A stretch of 64,000 bases of DNA. Origin: Pseudomonadota bacterium. Lineage in GTDB: Bacteria; Pseudomonadota; Alphaproteobacteria; Sphingomonadales; Sphingomonadaceae. The position numbers and the translations under genes are program-made. This document shows positions 6,711 through 48,431 of the stretch, in pieces. The stretch lies in contig JAKPHK010000038.1 in the NCBI GenBank assembly GCA_029550345.1, positions 1 through 64,000 of the forward strand, read 5' to 3'. The notes beneath the pieces were generated by a model. That model worked only from the letters and a program-made list of their open reading frames with translations. It had not been told where the DNA came from and ran no database searches. The first letter of the stretch is position 1. Each line of letters starts with the position of its first letter.

Positions 6711-6742
6711 TTGCGTTATTCGAGACTATATTTGTTACGCAA
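6711..6742. promoter_or_regulatory. Inverted repeat site 2 (TTGCGT-N20-ACGCAA), putative operator
   Basis: A perfect copy of both half-sites in the 243-bp divergent region between the OYE gene (start 6582, -) and hsaC1 (start 6826, +). Its position could serve both promoters. Confidence 0.75.
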
Positions 6743-6825
6743 ATCGCGGTCAATTTGATTCCGGTCAATGTTTCGCAGCTCGTCTCCGACCTAGCCTCTG
6801 CTCGCAATCAAGGTGGAGGACCGGG

Positions 6826-7740
6826 ATGGACATTGCAGCACTTGGCTATGTGGTCGTCCAAGCGCGCGATCCGGAACAGTGGCGGCATTTCGGTCAGGAC
6901 GTGCTGGGCATGGCCGCGCATGATCTGCCGGGCGGCCTTGGACTGAAAATGGACGAGCGGGCTGGGCGGGTCTTCATCGCACCGGGTGCGGCAGATTGCT
7001 ATTTCGCCTCTGGCTGGGAACTGCGGAGCGAGGCCGCGTTCAAGGCTGCCTGCGATCAGCTGAAGTCGAGGGGTATCGCATTCCATGCCGGAACTGCTGC
7101 AGAGATTGCGCTCCGCCATGTCTTCGACATGGTCTGGCTGCTCGATCCCTCGGGCAATCGGCACGAGCTGGCCTGGGGCTACCAGACCGACTTCGCCCGG
7201 TTCGTATCGCCAGCCGGCGTGCCGCGCTTCGTTACCGGCGAACTGGGTCTGGGTCACATGGTCCTGCCCGCGCCCACGATTGCCGCAACCCGGACCTTCC
7301 TGATGGAGGTGTTGGGCTTCGGCCTGTCGGACATCCTCATTCACCGCCCGGCGCTTGGCTTCGCACAGCGGATCGATTTCATGCACTGCGGCAATGGCCG
7401 CCATCACAGCCTGGCTCTGTTCGAGGGTGAGGTCCCGTCGGGCTGTGTCCACCTGATGTTCGAGGTCGACAGCCTGGACGAGGTTGGCCGCGCCTATGAC
7501 CGGATGCTGGCCAGCGGTGTGCGGCTGATGGCGACGCTGGGCAAGCACACCAACGATCACATGACCAGCTTCTACTTCATGTCCCCAGGCGGCTTCGCGA
7601 TCGAATACGGCTTTGGCGGGCGGACGATCGACTGGGATCACCACACCGTTTTCGAAAGCACCTCGGTCAGCCTGTGGGGCCACGATTTCAGCGTTGGCTT
7701 CGGGGCGGACGAACAGGCTGCCCTGGCTGACGCAGCCTGA
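6826..7740 (+). CDS. hsaC: Extradiol dioxygenase, HsaC-like, copy 1 (ring A meta-cleavage)
   Basis: 304 residues from ATG 6826, preceded by AGGTGGAGGA; the track start 6703 lies upstream of the operator and is rejected. Two-domain vicinal-oxygen-chelate (type I extradiol) enzyme. Visible active site: H144 (GLGHMVL), H209 (GCVHLMF) and E260 (FAIEYG) as Fe(II) ligands and H194 (GRHHSLAL) as the catalytic histidine, numbered almost as in BphC (146, 210, 260, 195). Known role of HsaC/TesB: cleavage of the catecholic ring of 3,4-dihydroxy-9,10-seco steroids. It is first gene of a four-gene operon with hsaA1 and two Rieske oxygenases. A second copy is at 47496. Confidence 0.88.
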   Translation: MDIAALGYVVVQARDPEQWRHFGQDVLGMAAHDLPGGLGLKMDERAGRVFIAPGAADCYFASGWELRSEAAFKAACDQLKSRGIAFHAGTAAEIALRHVFDMVWLLDPSGNRHELAWGYQTDFARFVSPAGVPRFVTGELGLGHMVLPAPTIAATRTFLMEVLGFGLSDILIHRPALGFAQRIDFMHCGNGRHHSLALFEGEVPSGCVHLMFEVDSLDEVGRAYDRMLASGVRLMATLGKHTNDHMTSFYFMSPGGFAIEYGFGGRTIDWDHHTVFESTSVSLWGHDFSVGFGADEQAALADAA

Positions 7741-7763
7741 CCCATTCCAGCGGGAGTACACCC

Positions 7764-8954
7764 ATGCAGACCAATGCCGCCAAGACTGACCTCACCCAGA
7801 CCCTGGTCGACCAGGCCCGCGCCATGCTGCCCGCGCTGCGCGAACGCGCCCAGCAATGCGAGGACGAGTGCAAGGTGCCCGATGCGACGATCCGGGACTT
7901 CCAGGAGGCCGGCTTCTTCAAGATCCTTCAGCCGCGCCGCTGGGGTGGCTACGAGCTTGATCCGCAAAGCTTCTATGCCGTGCAGATGACGCTGGCCGAG
8001 GCCTGCATGAGCTCAGCCTGGGTGCTGGGCGTGGTTGCGGTCCACAACTGGCAGCTCGCCCTGTTCGATGCCCAGGCCCAGGCCGATGTCTGGGGCGATG
8101 ATCCCTCTATCCTCATCTCATCCTCCTACATGCCGCGCGCCGAAGTTACGCCGGTCGAAGGCGGCTACCGGATCAGCGGACGCTGGGGCTTCTCATCGGG
8201 CGTCGACCACTGCCAGTGGGCCTTCCTGGGCGGGCTGGTGCCCGATCCCGAAGGCGGGCCGCCGGACTATCGCACCTTCCTCGTCCCGCGCAGTGACTTC
8301 GTCGTTGACCGAGTCTGGGATACCCTGGGCCTGCGCGGCACCGGCAGCCAGGACGTGGTGGTCAAGGATGCTTTCGTTCCGGCCTATCGCACGCACCGTT
8401 CCAAGGACGGCTTCCAGACCACCAGCCCGGGACTGAAGGTCAACGATGCGCCGCTCTACAAGCTGCCGTTCGGGCAGATCTTCGTGCGGGCGGTCTCCTC
8501 CTCGGCGATCGGGACGCTCAAGGGCGCGCTCGATGCCTTCCGCGCCTATGGTTCGGAGCGGGTCAGCTCGAACGACTTCTCGCGCACGGCCAACGATCCC
8601 GATGCCCAGCGCGTGATTGCCGAAACCGCTGCTGCGGTGGACGAGATGCAGCTGGTGCTGAACCGCAATTTCGATGTGCTGATGGGCCAGGCCTCAGCCG
8701 GCGCCGATTATGACCTGGAACAGCGCCTGCTGTTCCGCTTCCAGTCGGGCCAGATCCTTGATCGCTGCGCCAACCTGATCACGCGGATGTTCTACTCCTG
8801 CGGGGCGCTGGGCATCTACCGTTCCAGTCCGCTGGTCCGGGCCTTCGTCGATATCCATTCGGGCCGCACTCACGTGGCCAACAATCCTGGTTCGGTCAGC
8901 CGAAACCTGGGCGCGGTGCTGCTCGGCAATCCGAATACCGACACGTTCATCTGA
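7764..8954 (+). CDS. hsaA: Flavin-dependent 9,10-seco-steroid phenol monooxygenase, HsaA-like, copy 1
   Basis: 396 residues, ATG preceded by GCGGGAG. Acyl-CoA-dehydrogenase fold of the group D flavin monooxygenases (HsaA, HpaB-type): N-terminal helical domain (AGFFKILQPRRWGGYELDP), central beta domain (ISGRWGFSSGVDHCQWAF), a segment LGLRGTGSQDVVVKD and a C-terminal helical domain. These enzymes take reduced flavin from a separate reductase (HsaB) and add a hydroxyl ortho to the phenol of the seco-steroid, producing the HsaC substrate. The reductase is not in this operon; the only hsaB in the window is at 44019. The similar HsaA2 at 45335 shares the same motifs, so the two are paralogues. Confidence 0.87.
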   Translation: MQTNAAKTDLTQTLVDQARAMLPALRERAQQCEDECKVPDATIRDFQEAGFFKILQPRRWGGYELDPQSFYAVQMTLAEACMSSAWVLGVVAVHNWQLALFDAQAQADVWGDDPSILISSSYMPRAEVTPVEGGYRISGRWGFSSGVDHCQWAFLGGLVPDPEGGPPDYRTFLVPRSDFVVDRVWDTLGLRGTGSQDVVVKDAFVPAYRTHRSKDGFQTTSPGLKVNDAPLYKLPFGQIFVRAVSSSAIGTLKGALDAFRAYGSERVSSNDFSRTANDPDAQRVIAETAAAVDEMQLVLNRNFDVLMGQASAGADYDLEQRLLFRFQSGQILDRCANLITRMFYSCGALGIYRSSPLVRAFVDIHSGRTHVANNPGSVSRNLGAVLLGNPNTDTFI

Positions 8955-8975
8955 GCCGCGAGAGGGAGAGAAATC

Positions 8976-10064
8976 ATGGCGAAGACTGCCGAATACGGGC
9001 TGGGCCCGCTGACCTTCCCGCGCGGCTGGTTCATGATCGCGGAAAGTGCGGAGATTGCCGACAAGCCAGTGCCGCTGCATTACTTCGGGCGTGAATTCGT
9101 GGCCTATCGCGGGCAAAGCGGGCGGGTTTACCTGGTCGACGCCTATTGCCCGCACATGCGGATCCACATCGGCCGCAATACGACCAGCTACGTGGTCAAG
9201 GACGGTGAGCAGATCCAGGGTGAATCGATCCGCTGCCCCGGTCACGGCTGGCGCTTTGGCCCGGACGGCAAGGCCGACGATATCCCCTATTCCACCCACG
9301 GCATCCCCAAGGCAGCCTGCATCAAGACCTTCCCGGTGGTCGAGCGGGCCGGCTGCATCTGGATGTGGCATGACGAGGAAGGCGGCCAACCGCACTTCGA
9401 CCTGCCGCTGTTCCCCGAATGGGACATGGAGGGCGAGGGCTGGGTCCGCTGGCGGATCGATCACCTGGGCACCCTGCCGATCCACCCGCAGGAGATTGTC
9501 GACAACATGGTCGATGTGGCCCACTTCGTGCCGGTCCACGGCAGCAAGGACATCGTCTATTTCGAGAACGAGTTTCGCGATCACCTGATCTTCCAGCGCT
9601 TCGGTGCCGGGCATCGCACCCTGGTTACCGACAGCAACGCCGACGTGCTGATCAACGACACCTGGTACACCGGCCCCGGCATCCTGCTTTCGCGGATGGA
9701 GGGCCAGCATCCCTCGATTATCATGATCTGCAACACGCCGGTCGAGGATGGCGAAGTCCGGGTGTGGTACGCATTGATGGTCAAGGTGGGCGATGGCCCC
9801 GCCGACGAGGCCGGGGTGTCGATGGCGCGGTCCTATCAGGACGTGGCGCTGGATGCCTTTGCTCAGGACTTCGAGGTCTGGAAGTACAAGGAACCAGCCC
9901 TCACCATCATGCAGATCCCCGATGACGGGCCGTTCCACAAGGAACGGATCTGGTACCGGCAATTCTACAACCCCCGCGACAAGGCTGCGGAATTCCAGCG
10001 CCGCGTGAACGGCGTCCACACCACAATCGACAAGCGGCCCGGCGCCAAGTCCAAGGCTGCGTGA
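8976..10064 (+). CDS. Rieske oxygenase, 3-ketosteroid 9alpha-hydroxylase (KshA)-like, copy 1
   Basis: 362 residues, strong SD GAGAGGGAGAG. Rieske cluster: C58, H60, C87, H90 (CPHM...CPGHGW); the spacing between pairs is 26 residues rather than the usual 16-17, because of an extra loop around NTTSYVVKDGEQ. Mononuclear iron site: NMVDVAHFVPVH, with H183, H188 and bridging D180. The C-terminal segment QDFEVWKYKEPAL with RIWYRQFYNPRD resembles KshA. Inferred role: hydroxylation of the steroid nucleus leading to ring B opening. It needs a reductase (KshB), which is not encoded here. A close paralogue with the same insertion lies at 13240. Regiospecificity is not determined by sequence. Confidence 0.82.
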   Translation: MAKTAEYGLGPLTFPRGWFMIAESAEIADKPVPLHYFGREFVAYRGQSGRVYLVDAYCPHMRIHIGRNTTSYVVKDGEQIQGESIRCPGHGWRFGPDGKADDIPYSTHGIPKAACIKTFPVVERAGCIWMWHDEEGGQPHFDLPLFPEWDMEGEGWVRWRIDHLGTLPIHPQEIVDNMVDVAHFVPVHGSKDIVYFENEFRDHLIFQRFGAGHRTLVTDSNADVLINDTWYTGPGILLSRMEGQHPSIIMICNTPVEDGEVRVWYALMVKVGDGPADEAGVSMARSYQDVALDAFAQDFEVWKYKEPALTIMQIPDDGPFHKERIWYRQFYNPRDKAAEFQRRVNGVHTTIDKRPGAKSKAA

Positions 10065-10077
10065 GGAGGCACTCAAG

Positions 10078-11199
10078 ATGAACAATCCGGCAAATGCCAC
10101 TGACGCCCGCACGGCCCCCGTGGCGGTCTGGCAGATCCTTGAAAAGCTGCGCGGCCAGGACCTGGTCGACTGGCGGGTTGCCCCGCTTGAGGACCGCCCC
10201 ACGCCGGCCGAGCGCGGGCTGGATATCGGTTTTCCGTTCGGCTGGTACGCGGTGGAGCAGGCCAATTTTGTCGCCACCGGGCAGGTGAAGCCGCTGCGCT
10301 ATTTCGCCAAGGACCTGGCGATCTGGCGCGGCGAGGATGGCCAGGTCCGCGTGACCGATGCCTGGTGCAAGCACCTGGGTGCGCACATGGGCCACGGCGG
10401 CAAGGTTCACGGCAACCTGCTGGAATGCCCGTTCCACGCCTGGCGCTATGACGGCGAGGAAGGCGTGGTGAAGGAGATCCCCTATGCCAAGGCAATTCCC
10501 CCGCAGGTCAAGCGCAAGTGCCTGCGTACCTGGCCAGTGACCGAGGCCAACGGGTGGATCTGGGTCTGGTACCATCCCGACCAGAACGTCGCGCCGATGT
10601 GGGATGTGGTTGTGCATGAAGAGTATGGCGATCCGGAGTGGACCGAGTACGACCTGCATGAATGGACGGTCTACGGCTCGATCCAGAACATGGCCGAGAA
10701 CGGCGTCGATGTTGCCCACTTCAAGTACATTCACGGCACAGCCGACGTGCCCAAGGCCGAACTGCGCTGGGGCGAATGGGGCCGCGGCGCCGATGTGAAG
10801 GCGCAGATGGGCACGCCCAGTGGCGTGGTCGATGGCCTGATCAGCTATGACACGATGGGCGCGGGGCAAAGCTGGGTGCGGTTCCGCGGCATCTCGGAGA
10901 CACTGCTGGTAGCCAGCCTGGTCCCGGTTGAAGAGGACGTCCTGCGGGTGCGCTATGGCTTCATGCAGCCCAAGAGCCAGGCGAGCGGCCCCAGCGCAGG
11001 TCTGGCCAAGGCGCTGATCCGCGACATCTGCAAGCAGCTCGATCAGGACAAGGTGATCTGGGACCGGATGCGGTACGAGCCTAACCCGATCATTTGCGAT
11101 GGCGACGGGCCGATCCCGCAATTCCGCCAGTGGTACAGCCGGTACTACGCCGCCCCCGAAAGCCAGGGCGACCAGCCCGGTCTGCGTGCCGTCGGCTGA
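10078..11199 (+). CDS. Rieske oxygenase, steroid type, family B copy 1
   Basis: 373 residues with SD GAGGAGG. Rieske ligands C97, H99, C117, H120 (CKHLGAHM...CPFHAW, normal x17 spacing), then NGVDVAHFKYIHG with H214, H219 and bridging D211 as the mononuclear iron site. The order and the KEIPYAKAIPPQVK segment recall KshA and the animal cholesterol 7-desaturases (DAF-36/Neverland). It differs clearly from the KshA-like gene just upstream, so the pair may act at different positions of the steroid. It is last gene of the hsaC1 operon and is followed by a terminator hairpin. A paralogue is at 21471. The exact reaction is unknown. Confidence 0.8.
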   Translation: MNNPANATDARTAPVAVWQILEKLRGQDLVDWRVAPLEDRPTPAERGLDIGFPFGWYAVEQANFVATGQVKPLRYFAKDLAIWRGEDGQVRVTDAWCKHLGAHMGHGGKVHGNLLECPFHAWRYDGEEGVVKEIPYAKAIPPQVKRKCLRTWPVTEANGWIWVWYHPDQNVAPMWDVVVHEEYGDPEWTEYDLHEWTVYGSIQNMAENGVDVAHFKYIHGTADVPKAELRWGEWGRGADVKAQMGTPSGVVDGLISYDTMGAGQSWVRFRGISETLLVASLVPVEEDVLRVRYGFMQPKSQASGPSAGLAKALIRDICKQLDQDKVIWDRMRYEPNPIICDGDGPIPQFRQWYSRYYAAPESQGDQPGLRAVG

Positions 11200-13239: not shown

Positions 13240-14322
13240 TCAGGCGGCGGTTTCCCACGGGGCGGTCTTGGTGCCCTTGGTGGTGTAGCGACCGTTGACG
13301 CGCTTCTGGAAAGTCTCGGCCTGGGCGCGCGGGTTATAGAACTGGCGGTACCAGATCCGCACCTTGTCGAACGGCCCATCGCCGCGCACCATCATCGGGT
13401 GCAGGCAAGGGCGCTTGTTCGACCAGATCTCGAAATCCTGGGCAAACGCGTCGACGCCCGCTTCCTCATAAGCCCGGGCCAGCGCGACATCGTCAGTCGA
13501 TGGCTCGGCATTGTCGACCTTCACCATCAGGCCGTACCAGACCTTGATCACGCCATCGTCGATCGGGGTATGGGCGATCAACATGTGCGACGGGTTGGCC
13601 CCGACCATTACCGACTGGAGAATGCCGGGGCCAGTGTACCAAGTGTCATTGGTCATCGGCTCCCCGCCATCGGAAGCCAGGGTCTTGTGCCCGGCGGAGA
13701 GGATCTGCCGGCAGACGTGATCGTCGAACGCGTTCTCGAACGAGACCATGTCGATCGAGCCATGGACCGGCTCGAGGTGGGCCTTGTCGGCCATGTTGTC
13801 GACCACTTCCTGCGGGTGGCACTTGAGCTCGCCCAGTTCGCGCACGTTCCAGTTTACCCAATGCGGCGCGTTATAGCCTTCAAAGGGCGGCAACTCGTAT
13901 TCGGGCTCCTGGTTTTCCGGGTCGTACCAGGTCCAGAGACAGCCGGCGCGTTCCACCACCTTCCAGCTCTTGATGCAGGCCGATTTGGGCACCGCAGCAG
14001 GCGAGTAGGGGATCTGGTTAACCCGGCCATCTGGTCCGAAGCGCCAGCCATGATACGGGCAGCGAATGTTGTCGCCCTCAACATGCTCGCCGTCTTTGAC
14101 GACATAAGAGGTGGTGTTACGCGCCAGGTGCGTGCCCATGTGCGGGCAATAGGCTTCAAGCATGAAGACCTTACCGCTCTGGCCGCCGCGATAGAGCACG
14201 ACGTCCTCGCCGAAATAGCGCGCCGCGACCGGCGTGGTGCCAATCTCTTCGGAGCGGGCAACCATGAACCAGCCGCGCGGATAGGTGAATTCGCCGAGGC
14301 CATAGTCTGCGGTCGTGGCCAT
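13240..14322 (-). CDS. Rieske oxygenase, 3-ketosteroid 9alpha-hydroxylase (KshA)-like, copy 2
   Basis: 360 residues, SD GGGGAGAG before ATG 14322. It is the paralogue of the gene at 8976: same start pattern (YGLGEFTYPRGWFMVA), Rieske ligands in CPHMGTHLARNTTSYVVKDG and CPYHGW with the same 26-residue spacing, mononuclear site NMADKAHLEPVH, and QDFEIWSNKRPCL with RIWYRQFYNPRAQ near the end. The first residues after the iron-site histidine differ from copy 1 (HLEPVHGS versus HFVPVHGS), which may reflect substrate choice. It is transcribed alone from a promoter carrying operator site 4. The reductase partner is not in the window. Confidence 0.82.
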   Translation of the reverse strand: MATTADYGLGEFTYPRGWFMVARSEEIGTTPVAARYFGEDVVLYRGGQSGKVFMLEAYCPHMGTHLARNTTSYVVKDGEHVEGDNIRCPYHGWRFGPDGRVNQIPYSPAAVPKSACIKSWKVVERAGCLWTWYDPENQEPEYELPPFEGYNAPHWVNWNVRELGELKCHPQEVVDNMADKAHLEPVHGSIDMVSFENAFDDHVCRQILSAGHKTLASDGGEPMTNDTWYTGPGILQSVMVGANPSHMLIAHTPIDDGVIKVWYGLMVKVDNAEPSTDDVALARAYEEAGVDAFAQDFEIWSNKRPCLHPMMVRGDGPFDKVRIWYRQFYNPRAQAETFQKRVNGRYTTKGTKTAPWETAA

Positions 14323-14421: not shown

Positions 14422-14453
14422 ATGCGTAAAGTCCGTGAGGGACTTTTACGCGA
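14422..14453. promoter_or_regulatory. Inverted repeat site 4 (ATGCGT-N20-ACGCGA), putative operator
   Basis: It lies in the gap between the 3' end of the Lrp gene (14456) and the KshA-like gene (start 14322, -), about 100 bp upstream of that start. An extra half-site ATGCGT is at 14402-14407. Confidence 0.65.
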
Positions 14454-14455: not shown

Positions 14456-14947
14456 TCAGTCAAAATCCTCGGCGCCCGACTGCACCTCGGTGATCCGCAC
14501 GACGCGCGCATTGTACTTCAACGTCTTTACCGCGATCGAGGTTTCGACGTGATGAACCCCGGGGATGGCCAGGATCTTGTCGGAGGCCACTTCGTGCAGG
14601 TGATCGAGCGAATTGAACAGGCATATCGCCAGGATGTTGAACCGGCCCATGGTGACCATCACGGCATTGACCTGCGAAAGGTCGGCGATCTGGCGCGCCA
14701 CTTCGCGGACGTCGCTGACTTCGGCCTGAACCCCGATAAAGGCCATCCGGGCCGAATCCGCGAGACCGAAGCTGGTGATCGCGGTGAAGGAGATCAGGCC
14801 GTCCTGCTGCAATCGCTTGATCCGGCCCCGCACGGTCCCCTCGGTAACGCCAAGGTCCACCGCGATCTTGCGGTTGGAAACGCGGGCATCGCGGGCCAGC
14901 ACCTCGATCAGTTGGCGGTCGAGATCGTCAAGCTGTGGCGCGCTCAT
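14456..14947 (-). CDS. Lrp/AsnC family transcriptional regulator, copy A
   Basis: 163 residues. N-terminal HTH (NRKIAVDLGVTEGTVRGRIK) at about residues 22-45, then an alpha/beta RAM ligand/oligomerisation domain ending VKTLKYNARVV. Its start codon overlaps the stop of the upstream Lrp paralogue (ATGA), so the two are translated together and could form hetero-oligomers. Lrp/AsnC proteins respond to small effectors, usually amino acids, and can repress or activate. Position in the middle of the locus makes it a candidate for binding the repeated 32-bp operators, but this is not shown by the sequence. Confidence 0.88.
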   Translation of the reverse strand: MSAPQLDDLDRQLIEVLARDARVSNRKIAVDLGVTEGTVRGRIKRLQQDGLISFTAITSFGLADSARMAFIGVQAEVSDVREVARQIADLSQVNAVMVTMGRFNILAICLFNSLDHLHEVASDKILAIPGVHHVETSIAVKTLKYNARVVRITEVQSGAEDFD

Positions 14948-15426: not shown

Positions 15427-15486
15427 CGTGCCGGAACAACCCCCATTTCCTTGCCAGGTCAACCGTCCGGACCATCTTGGGCCCGT

Positions 15487-21467: not shown

Positions 21468-21470
21468 GCC

Positions 21471-22577
21471 TCAGCCCGCCTGCCGCTGGGATGACGGCAC
21501 GCCATCACCGCCGGCATAGAAGCGCTGATAGAACTTGCGGAAATGCGGGATCGGCCCGTCACCGTCGCAGATGATCGGGTTGGGTTCGTAGCGCATCCGG
21601 TCCCACACCACCTTGTCCTGATCGAGCTGCTTGTTGACGTCCTTGATGATCGCCCGGGCAAGGCCCGCCATCGGCCCTTCGGCCTGTTCGCGCGGCTGGG
21701 TGTAGCAATAGATCACCTGCAGTTCGTCCTGCTCGACCGGGATGATGCAGGCCACCAGCAGCGTCTCGCAAATGCCGGTAAAGCGCACCCAGGCCTGGCC
21801 CGGGCCAACCGAATTGCTGGTGATTGCGCCATCGACCATGCCTTTGGGTGTGCCCATCTTGGCTCGGACAATCCCGCAGCGGTCCCATTCGCCCCATGAG
21901 AGTTCCGAGGTCGGCAGTTCGGCGGTGCCGTGAATGTACTTGAAGTGGGCAAAGTCCACCCCGTTCTCGGCCATGTTCTGGAGCGAGCCGAAAATCCGCC
22001 ACTCGACGATGTCATAGGGGGTCCAGTCCGGATCGCTGGCCTCGGGCAGATGCACCACATCGTAAAGCGGCGCCGCATCTTCCGGGTGATACCACACCCA
22101 CAGCCACTGGTTCGCCTCGCGGATGTGCCAGGTACGGGTGCACTTGCGCTTCACCTGCGGCGGGATCGCCTTGGCATAGGGGATCTCCTTGACCACCCCT
22201 TCCTCGCCGTCATAGCGCCATGCGTGGAACGGGCATTCCAGCAGGTTTCCGTGGACCTTGCCGCCGTGGCCCATGTGCGCGCCAAGGTGCTTGCAATAGG
22301 CATCGACCATCCGCACCTGCCCGTCTTCGCCGCGCCACACGGCCAGGTCCCGCGCGAAATAGCGGGCCGGCTTGACCTCGCCCACGGCCAGGTCCTTCGC
22401 CAGCATGAACGGGTACCAGCCGAACGGGAACCCGATGTCGAGGTTGCGCGCTTCCGGGCTGGGGCGGTTGGCGATCGGCGCGACGCGCCAGGCCTCGCGC
22501 TCTTCCTTCGTCATCTTTTCAAGGACCTGCCAGACCGCGACAGGCGCGGTGCGGGCATCGGTGGCGGCTTCGGTCAT
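21471..22577 (-). CDS. Rieske oxygenase, steroid type, family B copy 2
   Basis: 368 residues, SD GGGGAGAACGAC. Paralogue of the gene at 10078: N-terminal DARTAPVAVWQVLEKM, Rieske ligands in CKHLGAHMGHGGK and CPFHAW with the normal spacing, KEIPYAKAIPPQVKRKC, mononuclear site NGVDFAHFKYIHG and the C-terminal LDQDKVVWDRMRYEPNPI. It is part of the SDR-ligase-ligase-amidohydrolase-amidase operon, unlike copy 1, which is with hsaA/hsaC. The shared fold but different operon suggests a different steroid substrate or step. Electron-transfer partners are not encoded in the window. Confidence 0.82.
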   Translation of the reverse strand: MTEAATDARTAPVAVWQVLEKMTKEEREAWRVAPIANRPSPEARNLDIGFPFGWYPFMLAKDLAVGEVKPARYFARDLAVWRGEDGQVRMVDAYCKHLGAHMGHGGKVHGNLLECPFHAWRYDGEEGVVKEIPYAKAIPPQVKRKCTRTWHIREANQWLWVWYHPEDAAPLYDVVHLPEASDPDWTPYDIVEWRIFGSLQNMAENGVDFAHFKYIHGTAELPTSELSWGEWDRCGIVRAKMGTPKGMVDGAITSNSVGPGQAWVRFTGICETLLVACIIPVEQDELQVIYCYTQPREQAEGPMAGLARAIIKDVNKQLDQDKVVWDRMRYEPNPIICDGDGPIPHFRKFYQRFYAGGDGVPSSQRQAG

Positions 22578-22623
22578 GTCGTTCTCCCCGGTGATTCGGT
22601 TCTTGTCGTTGCGGTTTGGGCAA

Positions 22624-23490: not shown

Positions 23491-23491
23491 A

Positions 23492-26745: not shown

Positions 26746-26746
26746 G

Positions 26747-39790: not shown

Positions 39791-41255
39791 AGGCCGCCTT
39801 GCGTCCGGCCTGGCGGCCAAAGAAGGTGCAGTCGGCCAGGCTCATCCCCGATGAATAGCCGTGCCCCCAGGCAGGAAGGCCCGATGTGCAGCGCCCCGCG
39901 GCGAACAGGCCGGGGATTGCCGCACCGCCGCGATCGAGCACTTCGCCATCGGGAGAGGTTTTCAGCCCGCCCAGGGTGAAGAAGCTGAAATAGCTGTCGT
40001 GGAAATCCAGTTCGAGCGCGATGAACGGTCCCTGATCCAGGGGCGTCAGGATCGGCGGGCGCTTGTCGAACAGCGGATCGCGACCTTTGCGGGCATGTTC
40101 GTTGTAGACCGCCATGGTCGCGCTGAGCGTGCCCTGCGGCAGTTCCAGTTCGGCCTCGACCTCTTCCCAGGTCTCGCCGGTCCCGGCGATGCGCATCCGG
40201 GCGAAATCCATCGGCTGGACGAAATGGGCATTGTCGAGCAGCAGGTAAACCTTGCCATCAGGCTGGTCGACCGCGCAGCGGCTGACGCGCCCATGATAGC
40301 AGTCTTCGTTGATGAAGCGTTGGCCCTTGGTGTTGACGAACACGCCGTAGGCATGGCTTTCCGGCATGGTCCAGGGGCAGGTGGTGAAGAACTGGTCCAT
40401 GTGGATTGCATCGCCGCCCGCACCCAGGCCCAGCTCGATGCCTGAGCCATCGTCCTTGTCGCCGATCGGATCGTTCAGCTTGAAGGTGTCGGGGCAGTAC
40501 TTACGCCGCATGGCCTCGTTGAAGACGAAGCCGCCCGTGGCCAGGACCACACCTTTCTCCGCCTTCACGAAGCGCGGCTGGTTGTCGATCCGCACGACCA
40601 GGCCGACGATCCGGTCGCCGTCGCGCACCAGCGCCAGGGCCCGGGCATCGGTGATGACCTCAATCCCTTTGGCGCGAGCGCTGGTTTCGAGCACATCGAC
40701 CAGCGGACGCCCGCCGCCCCAGCCCATGTGCTGGATCACATGGCCGCGCGGAGCGGGTTTGGCGAGATCGCAAAATGGCGCCGCCGCCTCGCTACCCGAC
40801 CAGATCAGGGTCGAATCGTCGGTCGGTTCGATAAGCTTTCCGGGCAGGTAATTGCCGCGGTAGGGCACGCCCTGGGCCTTGAGCCAGGCGTAGTGGTTCA
40901 GCGCCTCGCGGCCGTAACTCTCGCACTTGGCCTCATCGACGCAAGGTCCGCCGGCCAGCTTGAGATAGGCGATGAAGTCTTCGGTTGAATCCGCGAAGCC
41001 CGCCGCGCGCTGGGTATCGGTACCGCCGCCGCCGCCGATGTAGATCTCGCCGCCCGAGAGGCCCGATGCGCCGCCGCTGCCCGAATTGCGTTCGAACAGC
41101 ATGACGCGCGAACCCGCATCGGCCGCCTCGATCGCGGCGCAGGCCCCGGTCGCGCCAAAGCCGATGATGGCAACGTCAGTCTCGAAGTCCCAGGCCGCAA
41201 CCTCGCTGGCGGGGTAAGGGCGGTGCAGCGAAATCTCAGCCATGCTCTCAGTCAC
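39783..41255 (-). CDS. FAD-dependent flavoprotein of the KstD/fumarate-reductase group
   Basis: 490 residues (486 if started at the second ATG, 41243). FAD motif [60 protein letters not shown], and C-terminal [26 protein letters not shown]. The segment equivalent to PFYA...GTxGG of ketosteroid dehydrogenases reads GPFIALELD...SFFTLGGL, so the conserved Tyr is missing. It is therefore probably a dehydrogenase or reductase for a different enoyl or keto substrate. Its start overlaps the end of hsaF by 8 nt. Confidence 0.8.
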
Positions 41256-42285
41256 CCTTGGCCTTCACCATATCCAGCGCAACATCGACGATCATGTCCT
41301 CCTGCCCGCCGACCATCTTGCGGCGGCCGAGTTCGAGCAGGATTTCGCGGGTATCGATCCCATAGGTTTTGCTGGCCTTTTCGGCGTGGCGCAGGAAGCT
41401 GGAATAGACCCCGGCATAGCCCAGGCTCAAGGTTTCGCGATCGACCCGCACCGGGCGGTCCTGCAGCGGGCGGACCAGGTCCTCGGCCGCGTCCATCAGC
41501 AGGCTGACATCACAGCCGTGGTTCCAGCCCTTGCGGTCAGCTGCAGCCACGAAGACTTCAAGCGGGGCATTGCCAGCGCCCGCGCCCATGCCGGTCAGGC
41601 TGGCGTCGATCCGCACCGCGCCGCACTGGGCCGCGACAATCGAATTGGCGACACCAAGCGAAAGGTTGTGGTGCGCGTGCATGCCGCGCTGGGTTTCGGG
41701 CTTCAGCACCCGGTCATAAGCCTCGAACCGGGCGCGCACGCCGTCCATGTCAAGCGCGCCGCCGCTGTCGGTGACATAGACGCAGTGTGCGCCATAGCTT
41801 TCCATCAGCAGGGCCTGCTGTGCGAGCAGCTCCGGTTCAATCATGTGGCTCATCATCAGAAAGCCAGAGACATCCATGCCCAGGTCGCGGGCGATGCCAA
41901 TGTGCTGCTTGCTGACATCCGCCTCGGTGCAGTGAGTCGCGACGCGGACCGAGCGGACGCCAATGTCATAGGCGCGGCGCAGTTCCTCGACCGTGCCGAC
42001 GCCGGGCAGGATCAGCGTGGTAAGCACGCATTTGTCGAGCACGTCGGCCACGGCCTCCAGCCATTCCCAATCGGTATGGGCACCGAAGCCATAGTTGAAG
42101 CTTGCGCCCGAGAGGCCGTCGCCATGCGCCACCTCGATCGCATCGACCCCCGATGCCTCGATCGCCGCGGCAATCGCGCGGACGTGGTCGATCCCGTACA
42201 TGTGGCGCACGGCGTGCATGCCATCGCGCAGGGTAACGTCCTGGACATAGAGCTTGTCACCTGCTTCGACGTTGAACGTGCTCAT
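41248..42285 (-). CDS. hsaF: 4-hydroxy-2-oxoacid aldolase (HsaF/BphI/MhpE)
   Basis: 345 residues, the size of BphI. TIM-barrel DmpG family: [16 protein letters not shown] (catalytic Arg-Asp), [22 protein letters not shown], and [15 protein letters not shown] with the metal-binding HxH pair. Known role: Mn-dependent retro-aldol cleavage of 4-hydroxy-2-oxohexanoate to pyruvate and propanal, with the aldehyde channelled to HsaG. Overlaps hsaG by 4 nt as expected for subunits of one bifunctional complex. Part of the hsaA2 operon. Confidence 0.92.
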
Positions 42286-43229
42286 TGTGCCACCCCCCCC
42301 TGCTTCATTCGGCGCGCTGCCAGCAGTTCGCCGGTGGCCTTGGCTGCAGCGGTCATGATGTCGAGGTTGCCGGAATAGCTCGGCAGGTAATCGCCCGCGC
42401 CTTCTACCTCGAGCATGATCATCGACTTGATGCCGGTGAATTCGCCCATTCCGGGGATCTTCAGCTTGTTGTTGTCGCCGAAGCGCTCGAACTGCACTTC
42501 CTGCTTGAGTCGGTAGCCGGGAACATATTTCTGCACTTCGGCAACCATTTCTTCGACCGAGCGGCGGATCGCATCCTCGCTGCCGCCTTCGGACAGGGTG
42601 AAGACCGTGTCGCGCATGATCATCGGCGGTTCGGCCGGGTTAAGGATGATGATCGCCTTGCCCTTGGTGGCGCCACCGACGACTTCGATCGCCCGCGCCG
42701 TGGTGCGGGTGAATTCGTCGATGTTGGCGCGGGTGCCGGGGCCGGCTGAGCGAGACGAGACCGAAGCAACGATCTCGGCATAGTGCAGCTTGTCGGAGAC
42801 GCGGGCGACGGCGGCCACCATCGGGATCGTCGCCTGGCCGCCGCAGGTCACCATGTTGACGTTCGGCTGATCGAGATGCTGGCTCATGTTGACCGGCGGC
42901 ACGGTGAAGGGGCCGATCGCGGCCGGGGTCAGGTCAACCACCTGGATGCCGTCGGCGCGCAGCGCCTCGTCGTGGCCCTTGTGGGCATAGGCGCTGGTCG
43001 CATCGAAGGCGATGCCGATTTCCGGATAACAAGGCAGCTTCTTCAGGCCTTCAATCCCCTCGTGCGTGGTGGCGATGCCATGCTCGCGCGCCATCGCCAG
43101 CCCTTCGCTGTTCGGGTCAATCCCGACAACTGCCGCCAATTCCATGTTCTGGGGATACTTGATCATCTTCATCATCAGGTCGGTGCCGATATTGCCCGAG
43201 CCGATGATTGCGGCCTTCACGCGTGCCAT
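42282..43229 (-). CDS. hsaG: Acylating acetaldehyde/propanal dehydrogenase (HsaG/BphJ/MhpF)
   Basis: 315 residues from ATG 43229 ([29 protein letters not shown]), not the track's 43268. NAD-binding GSGNIGTDL, the [11 protein letters not shown] segment, and the catalytic Cys in [14 protein letters not shown]. Known role: oxidises propanal made by HsaF to propionyl-CoA with NAD+ and CoA. Completes the HsaE-F-G trio for the C6 side product of ring A. Downstream of hsaE with a 10-nt gap, upstream of hsaF with overlap. Confidence 0.92.
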
Positions 43230-43239
43230 TGCTGCTTCC

Positions 43240-44022
43240 TTAGACAAACCGTGCCGTGCAGGTGCCAATACCGTGCAGGGTCATTTCGAAGACGTCGCCT
43301 TTCACTGCCGGCTCCAGCGGAACCAGGCTGCCGGACAGGATCACGTCTCCACCATTGAGCGTCACGCCATAGGCGCCCAGCGTGTTGGCCAGCCAGGCTA
43401 CGGCCTGGGCCGGATCACCCTGGACCGCGCGGCCATAACCTTCGGACAGCGGCGCACCGTTCTTGGTGACCGTGACATGCAGGGCCGGCAGGTCATGGTC
43501 GCGGGGATCGACCTTGGCCTCGCCCAGGACGAAAACTCCGCATGAGGCGTTGTCGGCCACCGTATCGACAATCCCGATCTTCCAGTCGCGGATCCGGCTG
43601 TCGACGATCTCGAAGCAGGGGGTGATATAGTCGGTGGCCGCTACGACATCGGCGGCGGTGATGCCGGGCCCATTGAGGCTGTCCTTGAGCACGAAGGCAA
43701 TCTCGGCCTCGGCGCGCGGGGCGATCAGGGCCTTGGCATCGATGTCGATTTCTTCGCCGGTACGCATCCAGTCGGTCAGGAAGCCAAAGTCAGGTTGGTG
43801 CACGCCCAGCATGTCCTGCACTGCCTTGCTGGTGACGCCGATCTTCTTGCCGACCACCCGCTCGCCATCCTGGCGGCGGCGGGCGAGGAAGCCGAGCGAG
43901 ATGGCATAGGCATCGTTGATGGTCAGGTCGGGATAGCGCTCGATCAGCGGGCTGACCACGTGGCGGCCGCGCAGCGCGTCGTAAAGTTCGCCAGCCAGGC
44001 GGTCATTGCGGTTGTCGGTCAC
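43240..44022 (-). CDS. hsaE: 2-hydroxyhexa-2,4-dienoate hydratase (HsaE/BphH/MhpD)
   Basis: 260 residues from GTG 44022, overlapping the hsaB stop (GTGA); the track start 44139 would add a low-quality leader. FAA-hydrolase/MhpD fold: [27 protein letters not shown], metal site [46 protein letters not shown]. Known role: adds water to 2-hydroxyhexa-2,4-dienoate released by HsaD, yielding 4-hydroxy-2-oxohexanoate for HsaF. Position between hsaB and hsaG fits. Confidence 0.9.
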
Positions 44023-44513
44023 AGGTAGGCTCCGTCCTGGTAGATCAGGGGCGTCACCGCATCGCTGACCGTGGCGCGCAGGACGCGGGCGATGACGATC
44101 GAATGCGTGCCATAGGCCAGCATGGCATCGATCACGCAACCGAGGTTGGCCTGGGCTCCGACGAGCTCAGGCACGCCATCCGGGCCTTCGCGCCATTCCC
44201 CGATCCGGAAGCGCTCATCCTGCGGAACGCCGCCGCCGAAAGCCGCCGAAACATCCTGCTGGTCGCGAGCGAGCAGGTTGACTGACAAGGGGGCGGTCGG
44301 CACCAGCAAGCCATGCAGGGCGGTCGCGCGGTTGACGCAGACCAGCACGGCAGGTGGATCGATCGTCAGCGAAGTCACCGAAGTTGCGGCCATGCCGACT
44401 GGGCCGTTCTCACCACGCGCTGCCACGACAGCCACCGAGGCTGCGAGCCGCCGCATCGCCGCGCGGAATTGCGCCGGCAATTCCTCCGGGATCAGCGGAT
44501 AGCCGTCAGCCAC
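44019..44513 (-). CDS. hsaB: Flavin reductase, HsaB-like
   Basis: 164 residues. Flavin-reductase-like domain: FRAAMRRLAASVAVVAARGENGPVGMAATSVTSLTIDPPAVLVCVN with the typical G-x-T-(A/V)-(S/T)-S region, LSVNLLARDQQDVSAAF and CVIDAMLAYGTHSIVIARV. Known role: NADH-dependent FMN reductase that supplies reduced flavin to HsaA. It is the only such gene in the window, so it may serve both HsaA1 (7764) and HsaA2 (45335). Overlaps hsaD by 8 nt and hsaE by 4 nt. Confidence 0.88.
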   Translation of the reverse strand: MADGYPLIPEELPAQFRAAMRRLAASVAVVAARGENGPVGMAATSVTSLTIDPPAVLVCVNRATALHGLLVPTAPLSVNLLARDQQDVSAAFGGGVPQDERFRIGEWREGPDGVPELVGAQANLGCVIDAMLAYGTHSIVIARVLRATVSDAVTPLIYQDGAYL

Positions 44514-45324
44514 GCAGAAATTCCAGGCTGTAGCGGTTGAACTCTTCGGCCCGTTCGACCTGAACCCAGTGGCCGGTGCGGGTGAAGGTCATGCAGCGGG
44601 CATCGTCACAGCGATCGAGGAAATGGCGCGCGCCGCTTTCGGGGCAGAACTCGTCATTCAGGCCCCACAGTACGAAAATTGGCACCTTCAGCTCGCCCAC
44701 CAATGGCCCGAGGTTGGGCGTGCGCATGCGCATCAGCACGTCCTTTGGCTGGGTCCGGGCCACGGCAAACCGCTCCTCGACCAGGGCATCCGGAATTTGT
44801 GCGGCGAAATCGGGATGAACCAGATTGCTGATCAGGCGGCGCTGCTCATCCAGATTGAAGTCCGGCCCGCCGAAGTTGGAGACCATCTTGGTGATGCCCG
44901 GCATCTTGAAGTAGTCGGCCTGCTCCTCGATGCAGCCGGGCGCCATCAGGATCAGCCGCTCGGTGAACTCCGGATGGTCCAGCGTCAGATGAATCGCCAC
45001 CCCGCCGCCCAGCGAATTGCCAACCAGCACCGCTCGCTCGATGCCGTGCGCCCGCAGCGCCTGGTACAAGGTGTCGGTGAACAGCTGGAGGGTGTAGTCG
45101 ATCCCCTCAGGCTTCGAAGAGGCGCCATAGCCGATCAGGTCGGGCAGGATGACCTGGTAGCCGGCCTCGACAAAGGCCGGCCAGTTCTGCCGAAAGTTCG
45201 AAGCCCCCGATGCACCGGGGCCGCTGCCGTGGACAAAGACCACGACCGGGCCTTCGCCCGCCGACTTGAGGTGGATCCGGTAGCCGCCATCGACCTCGTA
45301 GGTTGCTTCCGCCAAGCCAGTCAT
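44506..45324 (-). CDS. hsaD: Meta-cleavage product hydrolase (HsaD/BphD-like)
   Basis: 272 residues. Alpha/beta hydrolase: oxyanion motif VFVHGSGPGASGASNF, nucleophile S104 in VGNSLGGGVAIHL, acid in LWGLNDEFCP, His in GHWVQVERAEEFNR. The HGSGPGASG motif is typical of BphD/HsaD carbon-carbon hydrolases. Known role: cleaves the ring-A meta-cleavage product into a 2-hydroxydienoate and the propanoate-bearing C/D-ring acid (HIP-type). Between hsaA2 and hsaB in the operon. Confidence 0.92.
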   Translation of the reverse strand: MTGLAEATYEVDGGYRIHLKSAGEGPVVVFVHGSGPGASGASNFRQNWPAFVEAGYQVILPDLIGYGASSKPEGIDYTLQLFTDTLYQALRAHGIERAVLVGNSLGGGVAIHLTLDHPEFTERLILMAPGCIEEQADYFKMPGITKMVSNFGGPDFNLDEQRRLISNLVHPDFAAQIPDALVEERFAVARTQPKDVLMRMRTPNLGPLVGELKVPIFVLWGLNDEFCPESGARHFLDRCDDARCMTFTRTGHWVQVERAEEFNRYSLEFLRG

Positions 45325-45334: not shown

Positions 45335-46549
45335 TTACAGGAAAGGGTTCAGCGGGGCCTGGCCCAGCATGGCGTTGACAGCATCGCTGGTGCGGTTGCC
45401 AGGATCGTTGGCAACGTGCGCGCGGCCGGCATGAAGATCGAGCCAGGGCTGAATGATGTCGCTGCTGGTATAGATCGCGCGGCCGCCGAACAGCTGCACC
45501 ACATCGTCGATCAGGCCGGCCAGCCGGCGCACGACAGTTGCCGACTGATAGGTATAGAACGCCCGCTTTTCCATCGGGATGTCCTCGCCGCGCTCGGCGT
45601 AGCCCATCAGATCTTCGAAGGTCAGGCGCAACGTGATTTCCATTTCGCGCTTTTCAGCCACGGCCCGGGCAATTGCGGCATGGAGGATCGGATCGTCCTT
45701 CGATGCCTTGCCGGTATTGGTCGAAACGCGGCTCTGCATGATCGCCATGGCCGCATTGATCGCGGCCTGAGCCCCGCCGAATGCTGCTGTCGAAACCGAA
45801 CGGACGAAAACCTGAGCCCAGGGCAGCCGGTAAAGCGGGCCGGTGTTCACTTCCTGCCCCGGATTCTTGCAGAGGAACCCGTCGATCGAGCGGTGGGTGC
45901 GGTAATCGGGCACGAAAACGTCATCGACAATGATGTCATGGCTGCCAGTGCCCTGGAGGCCGAACACGTGCCAGGCGTCTTCATCGATCGCGTAGTCGCT
46001 GCGCGGGAGCAGGAAGGTCCGCATCTCGGCCGGGGTGCCATCGTCCTTGGGCGGGCAGAACGCGCCCAGCAGGACCCAGCCGCAGTGACTCGATCCGGTC
46101 GAGAAGCCCCAGCGGCCAGACAGGCGGAACCCGCCTTCGACGTGCGTGACCTTGCCGACCGGCTGATAGGTAGACGAAACCAGCATGTCCGGGTTGCCGC
46201 CCCAGACTTCTTCCTGGGCCTTGTCGTGGAACAGCGCCAGCTCATAGGGGTGGCAACCGACGACGCCATACATCCAGCCGGTCGACATGCAGCCTTCTGC
46301 CAGCGCCTTCTGGACTTCGAAGAACACGTTGGGGTGCATTTCATAACCGCCCCAGCGCTTGGGCTGGACGATCTTGAAAAAGCCCGCCGCTTGCATCTCG
46401 GCAATGGTCTCGGCCGGGACGTTCCGGTTGCGCACACAATCGCGTGCGCGCTCCTTTAGAACGGGGATCATCGCGCGGGCACGGCTGATCAATTCTTCGC
46501 TGGTCGGCACCGAGCCTGAATGCTCGGCCTGCAGGGCTGCGGTGGCCAT
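45335..46549 (-). CDS. hsaA: Flavin-dependent seco-steroid phenol monooxygenase, HsaA-like, copy 2
   Basis: 404 residues, first gene of the minus-strand hsa operon. Acyl-CoA-dehydrogenase fold as in HsaA1: AGFFKIVQPKRWGGYEMHP, LAEGCMSTGWMYGVVGCHPYELALF, LSGRWGFSTGSSHCGWVLLGAF, FGLQGTGSHDIIVDDVFVPDYRTHRS. Because hsaB, hsaD and hsaE-G follow directly, this is the canonical ring-A monooxygenase copy, whereas HsaA1 sits with hsaC1 and Rieske genes. The two may handle seco-steroids that differ in substituents (inference). Confidence 0.9.
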   Translation of the reverse strand: MATAALQAEHSGSVPTSEELISRARAMIPVLKERARDCVRNRNVPAETIAEMQAAGFFKIVQPKRWGGYEMHPNVFFEVQKALAEGCMSTGWMYGVVGCHPYELALFHDKAQEEVWGGNPDMLVSSTYQPVGKVTHVEGGFRLSGRWGFSTGSSHCGWVLLGAFCPPKDDGTPAEMRTFLLPRSDYAIDEDAWHVFGLQGTGSHDIIVDDVFVPDYRTHRSIDGFLCKNPGQEVNTGPLYRLPWAQVFVRSVSTAAFGGAQAAINAAMAIMQSRVSTNTGKASKDDPILHAAIARAVAEKREMEITLRLTFEDLMGYAERGEDIPMEKRAFYTYQSATVVRRLAGLIDDVVQLFGGRAIYTSSDIIQPWLDLHAGRAHVANDPGNRTSDAVNAMLGQAPLNPFL

Positions 46550-46597: not shown

Positions 46598-46629
46598 CTT
46601 CGTAAAATTTTCTAACGTTTGATACGCAA
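46598..46629. promoter_or_regulatory. Inverted repeat site 9 (CTTCGT-N20-ACGCAA), putative operator
   Basis: In the 179-bp divergent region between hsaA2 (start 46549, -) and the SDR/ipd operon (start 46729, +). The left half is degenerate, the right half is perfect and the spacing is exact. It would control the two largest operons of the locus. Confidence 0.6.
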
Positions 46630-46728: not shown

Positions 46729-47496
46729 TTGACCCAGGGAGTGCACATCGACCTTGCAGGGAAAGTTGCCCTGGTCACTGGCGGAACCCGCGGGTTGGGC
46801 CGGGCGATTTCGGCGCGGCTGGCTGAGGCTGGCTGCACGGTTGTTGCTTGTGCCCGGAATGCACCGGACGACCTGCCGCCGGGCGTATCCTTCCAGGCGG
46901 CCGACATCCGCGATGCCGATGTGGCCCGCGCGCTGGTCGACGGCATTGCCGACGCGCACGGCCGGTTCGATATCCTGATCAACAATGCCGGCGGTTCGCC
47001 CGCAACGGCAGCCGAGCAGGCCAGCGCGCGCTTCATCGACGCTATCCTGAAGCTCAACCTGGTTGCTCCGCTTTACCTGGCCCAGGCTGCCTATCCGCAC
47101 ATGGTTGCGGTGGGCGGCGGCGCGGTGGTCAATATTGCCAGCGTTTCCGGAATTCGTCCGTCGCCCGGCACGGCAGTCTATGGTGCCGCCAAGGCGGGGC
47201 TGCTGAACCTGACGCAAAGCCTGGCGCAGGAATGGGGTCCCGCCGGCATCCGCGTCAACGCAATCATTGCCGGGCTGATGCAGACCGAGAATGCCGAGGC
47301 AACCTATGGCGATGCCGAGGCCCAGGCGGCGGTCGGCCGGTCGATGCCGCTGCAGCGCATGGGTACCGGCGATGATCTGGCCGGGGCCGTGCTGTGGCTT
47401 TGCTCCCCGCTTGCCGCCTGGGTCAGCGGCGCAAAAATCAACGTCGATGGCGGGGGCGAGCGCCCTTATTTCCTCGACCTCGTGAAAGGACACTGA
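46729..47496 (+). CDS. Short-chain dehydrogenase/reductase
   Basis: 255 residues with a TTG start at 46729, preceded by GGGAGA at a suitable distance; GTG 46741 is the alternative. TGGTRGLGRAISARL cofactor motif, NNAGGSPAT, NIASVSGI, YGAAKAGL, NVDGGGERPYFL at the end. First gene of the 17-gene plus-strand operon, and its stop overlaps the start of hsaC2 (TGATG). Probably a hydroxysteroid or hydroxyacyl-CoA dehydrogenase; substrate unknown. Confidence 0.83.
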   Translation: MTQGVHIDLAGKVALVTGGTRGLGRAISARLAEAGCTVVACARNAPDDLPPGVSFQAADIRDADVARALVDGIADAHGRFDILINNAGGSPATAAEQASARFIDAILKLNLVAPLYLAQAAYPHMVAVGGGAVVNIASVSGIRPSPGTAVYGAAKAGLLNLTQSLAQEWGPAGIRVNAIIAGLMQTENAEATYGDAEAQAAVGRSMPLQRMGTGDDLAGAVLWLCSPLAAWVSGAKINVDGGGERPYFLDLVKGH

Positions 47497-48431
47497 TGCC
47501 CATGGCCATCAAGGCACTTGGCTATGTGGTTATCCAGACGGCGCAGTTGCAGCGCTGGGACCACTTTCTGACTCAGGTCGCCGGCGTGATGCGCGCGGCC
47601 GATGCCACTGACGGGGCGCATCTCTACCGGATCGATCAGCGCCCATTCCGCTTCCGGATCGAACCGGGCGCGCAAGACCGCTTCGTGGCCGCTGCATACG
47701 AAATTGATGACGCTGCCGCGCTGGCCGCTCTGGCGGAGCGGATCGCCGCTGCTGGACGGCCGGTCGAATTCGGCTCTGATGCGGGCGCGGCCCTGCGCGG
47801 TGTTGACCGGTACTTTGCAACCAGCGACCCGGCCGGCAACGGGCTTGAATTCTATTGCGGCGACAGCGTGGCCGAGGCGCCCTTCGTTTCGCCGCTGGGG
47901 ATCCCGGCCTTCGTAACTGGCGAAATGGGAATGGGTCACGCGGTGTTTTCCGCCCCCAACTTCAATGAATGCGTCACTTTCTATCGCGACGTGGTCGGCT
48001 TTCATGAAACCGACATGCCGCGGTTCTTCTTCGGTGACGGCAGTGCCGACGATCCGGGCATGGGCTTTGCCTTCATGCACGCTGACAATGGCCGCCATCA
48101 CTCAATCGCGCTGGGCGAAGGACCGGTGCCGCCATCGGGCTGCGTCCACCTGATGCTCGAACTGCCCAGCCTGGTTGAGGTGGGCAAGGCTTATGACCGC
48201 ATGAAGGCGCTGGGCTATGCCGAAAGCGCTTCACTGGGCCAGCACTACAATGACGAGACGGTCGGCTTCTATGTGCAGACCCCCGGCGGCTTCGATCTGG
48301 AGATCGGCTGCGACAGCCTGGTGATCGACCCGGCCACCTGGGAAGTTACCCGACACAAGGGGATCAGCATCTGGGGCCATGAATGGGCCTGGCAGAAGGC
48401 GATGAAAGAGCAACAGGCGGCAGCGGAATGA
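47496..48431 (+). CDS. hsaC: Extradiol dioxygenase, HsaC-like, copy 2
   Basis: 311 residues from ATG 47496 (SD AAAGGA), overlapping the SDR stop; ATG 47502 is also possible. Paralogue of 6826: MAIKALGYVVIQTAQLQRW, Fe(II) ligands H148 (GMGHAVF), H218 (GCVHLML), E269 (FDLEIG) and catalytic H202 (GRHHSIAL). Known role: meta-cleavage of the catecholic seco-steroid. It is divergent from hsaA2, so this pair, with hsaD/B/E/G/F, forms the canonical set. Differences between copies in the segment before the third ligand could tune substrate choice. Confidence 0.9.
   Translation: MPMAIKALGYVVIQTAQLQRWDHFLTQVAGVMRAADATDGAHLYRIDQRPFRFRIEPGAQDRFVAAAYEIDDAAALAALAERIAAAGRPVEFGSDAGAALRGVDRYFATSDPAGNGLEFYCGDSVAEAPFVSPLGIPAFVTGEMGMGHAVFSAPNFNECVTFYRDVVGFHETDMPRFFFGDGSADDPGMGFAFMHADNGRHHSIALGEGPVPPSGCVHLMLELPSLVEVGKAYDRMKALGYAESASLGQHYNDETVGFYVQTPGGFDLEIGCDSLVIDPATWEVTRHKGISIWGHEWAWQKAMKEQQAAAE

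Follow-up and report, generated by a model that had tools for sequence, protein, structure and literature searches.

At positions 6826-11199 of the window, by which we mean the whole stretch of 64,000 nucleotides that was analysed, there are four oxygenase genes preceded by two putative regulatory sites:

6712..6741, unstranded: operator of 30 bp, TGCGTTATTCGAGACTATATTTGTTACGCA, of the form TGCGT-N20-ACGCA with a 10/10 match
6755..6768, unstranded: Fnr box, TTGATTCCGGTCAA, a predicted FnrL/FnrN binding site
6826..7740, plus strand: hsaC1, a type I extradiol dioxygenase with a predicted role in ring A meta-cleavage
7764..8954, plus strand: hsaA1, the predicted oxygenase component of a flavin-dependent C4-hydroxylase
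8976..10064, plus strand: kshA1 (RieA1), a Rieske 3-ketosteroid 9alpha-hydroxylase-like oxygenase
10078..11199, plus strand: rieB1, a second and more distant Rieske oxygenase, 69% identical to RieB2

All four genes share one strand with intergenic gaps of 13-23 bp, so that their grouping as a single operon in an earlier, sequence-only reading of this DNA holds, and the module is a real and compact operon of intact oxygenase genes, separate from the hsaA2 and hsaC2 of the main steroid cluster. The proteins belong to the same enzyme families as the HsaA, HsaC and KshA of Mycobacterium and Rhodococcus, though HsaA1 and HsaC1 score below the NCBIfam equivalog cut-offs. HsaA is the best family for both HsaA1 (409 bits) and HsaA2 (367 bits), yet both are under the threshold of 450 for NF045629; likewise, HsaC1 (266 bits) and HsaC2 (221 bits) stay under the curated cut-off of 450 for the HsaC model NF045631. 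Matches to solved structures were obtained for HsaC1 (PDB 2zi8, E=5e-63), HsaA1 (2rfq, E=7e-95) and KshA1 (4qdc, E=4e-47), and the two Rieske proteins exceed the Pfam cut-offs (Rieske and KshA_C, 52 and 196 bits for kshA1, 67 and 93 bits for rieB1). Neither copy has lost its catalytic motifs: by alignment and pattern, the iron ligands (two His and one Glu) are conserved in HsaC1 and HsaC2, the D-x-H-x-G-R-x-H motif of the solved HsaA in HsaA1 and HsaA2, and the Rieske and mononuclear-iron motifs are present in KshA1. The presence of rieB1 in the module is restricted to genomes on the Novosphingobium side. Rfam yielded no RNA families, and no tRNA was found.

The module comprises O2-consuming steps only, with hsaB and hsaD to hsaG encoded outside it. 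The remaining steroid genes of interest in the window are:

13240..14322, minus strand: kshA2 (RieA2), a KshA-like paralogue; an operator of the shared type lies at 14423-14452
21471..22577, minus strand: rieB2, a Rieske gene within an amidase and steroid-CoA-ligase-like operon (19947-27643)
41248..44139, minus strand: hsaG, hsaF and hsaE (aldolase, acetaldehyde dehydrogenase and hydratase)
44019..44513, minus strand: hsaB candidate, a flavin reductase (PF01613, RutF-like)
44506..45324, minus strand: hsaD, whose product is the genome's sole full HsaD and is required downstream of both copies
45335..46549, minus strand: hsaA2, the main steroid cluster copy, of the Nov2c349 type
46599..46628, unstranded: operator of the shared type, located between hsaA2 and a divergent operon containing hsaC2
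47496..48431, plus strand: hsaC2, the extradiol dioxygenase of copy 2

Paralogues of the two copies are 42% (HsaC2), 46% (HsaA2), 55% (RieA2) and 69% (RieB2) identical to their module counterparts. The claim of two hsaA and two hsaC genes with a single hsaD agrees with the genome, a draft with an estimated contamination of 7%. The earlier reading's count of Rieske genes was right as to the paralogues RieA2 and RieB2, but the genome encodes six KshA_C Rieske proteins, including two extra ones on another contig (C43). Similarly, copy 2 had been described as spread over three places (13240, 21471 and 45335/47496), where the paralogues do lie; RieB2, however, probably acts on the side chain instead of forming one half of another ring A/B set, because its operon contains amidase and steroid-CoA-ligase-like genes, like Nov2c227, Nov2c228 and Nov2c230 of Sphingobium sp. 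Chol11, among which rieB2 resembles Nov2c228 (PMC8399759, PMC12175502).

The operator before hsaC1 had been taken as the module's own. TGCGT-N20-ACGCA (at least 9/10) occurs instead at nine sites in the window, all of them before genes (mean 2.4 and maximum 6 in shuffled sequence), so the hsaC1 operator recurs at copy 2, where it lies before hsaA2 at 46599, and at seven other promoters.

What is new about the module is its second site, since the gene set itself was already known. Of 30 distinct hsaC1 promoters, 29 have the Fnr box (TTGA-N6-TCAA, 8/8) about 70 bp upstream of the gene, against a chance expectation of about 0.4% for each promoter, whereas all 22 hsaA2 promoters lack it; the box is also invariant in 25 promoters that are less than 60% identical to each other. 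No such box was found in the operator region at 46599, nor for KshA2 or RieB2, though both of these consume O2. The box is also kept in rearranged modules, one with hsaA1 alone (G012) and one with an extra box before kshA (L012). Its distance to the hsaC1 start is mostly 65-84 bp upstream and, judged solely by this spacing, the box would serve as an activator rather than a repressor site. The sequence fits the consensus TTGAc/t-N4-g/aTCAA of the Sphingopyxis granuli TFA Fnr regulon, derived experimentally with a sphingomonad fnrN/fixK mutant in a paper that nowhere mentions the word 'steroid' (PMC7713065). This consensus is found at only 12 places in the present genome, including sites before ccoN beside an FnrL-like gene, by narK, and upstream of trxC and of a gene for a globin-like protein. 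Our search of the open-access literature found no report linking Fnr to kshA or hsaC.

A candidate regulator is encoded in the same genome. Its four cysteines are arranged as in FnrN and its recognition helix contains the E..SR residues; FnrL is the best-matching family, although at 229 bits the score is short of the cut-off of 300. Boxes of this kind are also recognised by other CRP/FNR proteins, such as the FixK and Dnr types, for which O2 may not be the signal. From the box and its conservation, it is very likely that the module is under the control of an FNR-type protein.

The distribution among genomes gives a similar picture. Among 401 genomes, the module occurs in 19, all nested within the 44 that carry copy 2, and 25 of those 44 lack it; its position relative to copy 2 differs between genomes. 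An FnrL homologue was detected in 19/19 module genomes vs 18/25 of the others (p=0.013, a value that ignores kinship). In three of the 19, two of them from one genus, the module is part of the FixLJ-FnrL-cbb3 oxidase island, fixLJ-fnrL-ccoNOPGHI, or adjoins it (G141, G073 and G275). For copy 2, none of the 24 stretches examined, about 12-21 kb long, contained fixLJ-fnrL-cco genes, but in one genome (G109) it is copy 2 that has an FnrL gene roughly 11 kb away.

As a gene set, the module has known relatives. The hsaA1/kshA1 pair corresponds to EGO55_13440 and EGO55_13445 (TesA2-like and KshA) of Caenibius (Novosphingobium) tardaugens, where the orthologous order hsaC1-hsaA1-kshA1 is found at 69-72% identity, also with an Fnr box and a shared-type operator but, unlike here, without rieB1. 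Those genes were published only as responding to testosterone (7.2x and 7.8x induction) and, for the hsaA1 orthologue EGO55_13440, also to estradiol (8.0x), in descriptions with no link to oxygen; because steroid-grown and pyruvate cells were compared, these 7-8-fold inductions are a response to steroid and not to O2. For Sphingomonas sp. KC8, oecB (KC8_16650, gene cluster I) is the very probable counterpart of hsaA1 by orthology, on condition that genome G073 is KC8, itself very probable; the positions of the HsaA1 and EdcB-like matches in G073 fit the ratio between the locus tags of oecB and oecC, with 53% identity to EdcB (published, 52.3%). The module of this genome lies beside fixLJ-fnrL-ccoN with a globin-like gene at its end. 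In Chol11, the main-cluster genes Nov2c347-350 correspond to copy 2 (hsaB, hsaD, hsaA2 and hsaC2), and copy 1 is taken to be missing because a single HsaA homologue was reported (PMC8540908).

Altogether, we favour, at a probability of roughly 0.5, a reading in which the operon duplicates those enzymes of the 9,10-seco route of steroid degradation that consume O2, is regulated by oxygen, and shares the remaining enzymes with copy 2. KshA1 would open ring B by 9alpha-hydroxylation, HsaA1 would hydroxylate the new phenolic ring A and HsaC1 would cleave it, and copy 2 would supply the single HsaD-HsaE-HsaF-HsaG route for the product. Transcription would respond to two inputs, the steroid-regulon operator, also present at copy 2, and the Fnr box, where a regulator of the FnrL/FnrN type, active with an intact Fe-S cluster at low O2, might bind and activate the promoter. 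The oxygenase steps could thus be kept going at scarce O2, alongside the cbb3 oxidase, by enzymes presumably suited to such conditions, although the benefit of the module at low O2 is an evenly balanced proposition. Tentatively, and with somewhat less assurance, we extend this view to sphingomonads as keeping dedicated low-oxygen isozymes for all O2-consuming ring-opening steps, controlled as part of the FnrL/FixLJ micro-oxic respiration regulon and, in some lineages, joined to the cbb3 island in one locus, with the OecB of KC8 as a member and not as an estrogen-specific enzyme. If true, such a set would explain why the oxygenases alone are duplicated, as well as the O2-dependent degradation of steroids and bile salts in oxygen-poor zones of sludge and sediment. 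It would also cast a new light on oecB, a gene cited in work on estrogen degradation as a candidate estrone hydroxylase.

The sequence-only reading had proposed parallel routes for two classes of steroid nucleus. A second oxygenase module converging on the shared HsaD and later steps is indeed what we find, whereas the substrate classes have no independent support. A preference of copies 1 and 2 for different 9,10-seco-steroids (e.g., delta-6 or 12-hydroxy) would fit HsaA1 and HsaA2 being old and well-supported separate clades in two trees, even if a common sphingomonad clade survives an AU test (p=0.094). It would also fit HsaC1 being nearer to actinobacterial HsaC and HsaC2 nearer to BphC, and the growth of Chol11 on cholate even without its single reported HsaA homologue (PMC8540908). 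We consider this rather unlikely, given that the two copies share the steroid operator, that the C. tardaugens orthologues answer to testosterone as well as to estradiol, and that the module has no other substrate-specific item and its Fnr box would be left unexplained. The features separating both copies, the Fnr box and the linkage to the cbb3/FnrL island, point to oxygen and not to substrate, and an Fnr-type switch suggests a reserve for times of low oxygen, not a set for another steroid.

It is more doubtful still that the opening of C19-androgen rings relies mainly on the module, with copy 2 as an auxiliary and the box merely fine-tuning or repressing it. The hsaA1 orthologue of C. tardaugens is induced above the cluster copy (PMC6895838), and copy 1 outscores copy 2 against the HsaA and HsaC models, but more than half of the sampled copy-2-type genomes (25/44) do without the module, and the position of the box suggests activation.

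A dedication to estrogens, with HsaA1 as the estrone 4-hydroxylase proposed for OecB in KC8, is very improbable. Although the probable orthologue oecB is upregulated on estradiol in KC8, as EGO55_13440 is in C. tardaugens, mutants and heterologous expression in the latter indicate that the P450 EdcA is the estrone 4-hydroxylase. Moreover, the module contains a kshA that estrogens, with their aromatic ring A, should not need, and a likely EdcB orthologue occurs in only 8 of the 19 module genomes and not in the present one.

Finally, simple dosage redundancy after a recent duplication or mobile insertion is the least credible option, in spite of there being two copies with a variable relative location, since these are 46% identical in deep separate clades (the AU result notwithstanding) and show no sign of mobility. 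In this regard, the module had been called mobile-looking, but its GC content and codon use are ordinary and no long repeats flank it. The flanking genes identified are for steroid-type enzymes and a TonB receptor. The steroid-gene flanks are conserved in close relatives, and the gene order and promoter of the module are conserved over many genera.

Family and structure searches place the first three copy 1 proteins with HsaC/BphC, HsaA and KshA, respectively, and the fourth is a more remote KshA_C Rieske; their genes form a compact module:

6826-11199, + strand: hsaC1, hsaA1, kshA1 (RieA1) and rieB1, in that order, with inter-gene gaps of 13-23 bp

HsaA1 and HsaC1 score under the strict NCBIfam cut-offs, and hence hsaA1 and hsaC1 stand for 'HsaA-like' and 'HsaC-like'; both copies keep intact catalytic motifs. 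The window corresponds to contig C94 in a draft genome of 3.1 Mb (143 contigs, 93.7% complete, 7.1% contamination) from a Novosphingobium-like bacterium, with Novosphingobium sp. UBA6722 giving the closest HsaA1 match (98% identity). Two HsaA-type and two HsaC-type proteins versus a single full HsaD, as proposed from the window, were borne out throughout this genome, whose KshA_C Rieske proteins number six, with two encoded beyond the window. An alkyl-sulfatase-like gene upstream of the module (116-940), near the window edge, is conserved in close relatives.

The enzymes and the gene pair are already known, since they have counterparts in C. tardaugens (EGO55_13440/13445, which we take to be the module of genome G191) and very probably in Sphingomonas sp. 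KC8 (oecB). Testosterone induces EGO55_13440/13445 7.2x and 7.8x, and estradiol raises EGO55_13440 8.0x. The genome that is very probably KC8 (G073) shows an EdcB-like match at 1.112 Mb and an HsaA1 match at 3.464 Mb, a ratio in agreement with tags KC8_05325 (oecC) and KC8_16650 (oecB).

The sequence-only reading gave copy 1 an operator of its own, but the same 30-bp motif, TGCGT-N20-ACGCA, also occurs at copy 2 and elsewhere in the window, always ahead of genes if likely start codons are considered (shuffles: mean 2.4, maximum 6):

1583, 6712 (copy 1), 12362, 14423, 18038, 27676, 29247, 35692 and 46599 (copy 2): nine operator sites with at least 9/10 matches

These sites would define a steroid regulon; the genes and operons that they precede include TonB receptors, both copies, kshA2 and the side-chain operon. 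Two adjacent Lrp/AsnC-like genes (14456-15462, upstream of kshA2; named by eye) encode candidates for the operator's regulator, and a similar pair lies near the C. tardaugens module (L100:12262-13225; named by eye).

What is peculiar to copy 1 is a second element:

6755-6768: predicted Fnr box TTGATTCCGGTCAA, downstream of the operator at 6712

A complete TTGA-N6-TCAA was found in 29/30 distinct hsaC1 upstream regions, in none of 22 hsaA2 regions and in ~0.4% of shuffled regions. These counts serve as the test, because the alignment of 25 promoters (mutual identity <60%), where the eight box columns are nearly all invariant and most flanking positions variable, was anchored on the motif. The sole boxless region belongs to L017, a divergent outgroup with different gene order; the box is retained in G012, where hsaA1 stands alone, and locus L012 has a second one ahead of kshA. 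In G058 (L190:7607-7657) the box lies farther than the operator from hsaC1, opposite to the usual order, and its fifth base deviates. For Sphingopyxis granuli TFA, work with an fnrN/fixK mutant gave the Fnr box TTGAc/t-N4-g/aTCAA (PMC7713065). This consensus occurs at only 12 places in our genome, including ahead of ccoN, which neighbours an FnrL-like gene, next to narK and ftrB, and ahead of trxC and a globin-like gene. The FnrL-like protein has four cysteines with FnrN spacing and an E..SR recognition helix. A truncated-globin-like gene on contig C12 of our genome (L183:1483-1893; named by eye) has a perfect Fnr-type box ~67 bp upstream. One other TTGA-N6-TCAA site exists in the window (TTGAGTGTAATCAA, 31984-31997), between the gene at 30156-31850 and opposite-strand genes. 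Both extra KshA_C Rieske genes lie on contig C43 (L149, 8146 bases), where the scan gave no box.

In some relatives the module is physically linked to fnrL and cbb3 oxidase genes: fnrL and cco genes directly upstream of hsaC1 in G141; fixJ, fixL, a uspA-like gene, fnrL and ccoNOPGHI upstream of hsaC1 in G073; and an adjoining fixLJ-fnrL-ccoNOPGHI island in G275. In G073 a truncated-globin-like gene (L102:7386-7832; named by eye) overlaps the kshA1 end. Around copy 2, none of them turned up in 24 stretches of ~12-21 kb each; G109 has an FnrL gene ~11 kb from copy 2. An FnrL homologue is encoded in 19/19 module genomes versus 18/25 others (p=0.013). The HsaA2 type is present in 44 of 401 family genomes and the HsaA1 type in 19, every one of which also has the HsaA2 type (hypergeometric 9e-21, without correction for phylogeny). 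In 40 loci, those passing the search for all three genes and several repeating one genome, hsaC1, hsaA1 and kshA1 are same-strand neighbours, with correlated divergences (Mantel r 0.70-0.78, 26 distinct sets). Layouts differ in L017, L014 and G012, and RieB1 is in the module only on the Novosphingobium side.

Since the module comprises O2-consuming ring-opening steps without the O2-independent ones, carries the Fnr box and is linked to these islands, the sequence data are most economically read as an isozyme set for low oxygen. For its flavin reductase and for the steps from HsaD on, the module has to rely on copy 2 or on genes elsewhere. The module would respond to steroids through the common operator and to O2 through FnrL at the predicted box; we infer FnrL binding, the direction of regulation and a better performance of the module at low O2. 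It is also possible, as the sequence-only reading proposed, that both copies act on different substrates, an idea compatible with a low-oxygen set. Within the open-licence literature searched, where no report of it was found, the proposed oxygen wiring is the new part.

The main cluster of copy 2 (hsaA2, hsaD, hsaB, hsaE, hsaF, hsaG and hsaC2) resembles Nov2c347-350 of Sphingobium sp. Chol11 (PMC8399759). In the trees, HsaA1 and HsaA2 fall into two distinct clades with good support; a single sphingomonad clade was not rejected (AU p=0.094). The proposed pairing of RieB2 (21471) with ring A/B cleavage looks doubtful, because its operon also encodes an amidase and a steroid-24-oyl-CoA-synthetase-like protein, an arrangement that resembles Chol11 Nov2c227 (Bsa), Nov2c228 and Nov2c230 (SclA), where Nov2c228 is suspected of a role in side-chain degradation (PMC12175502).
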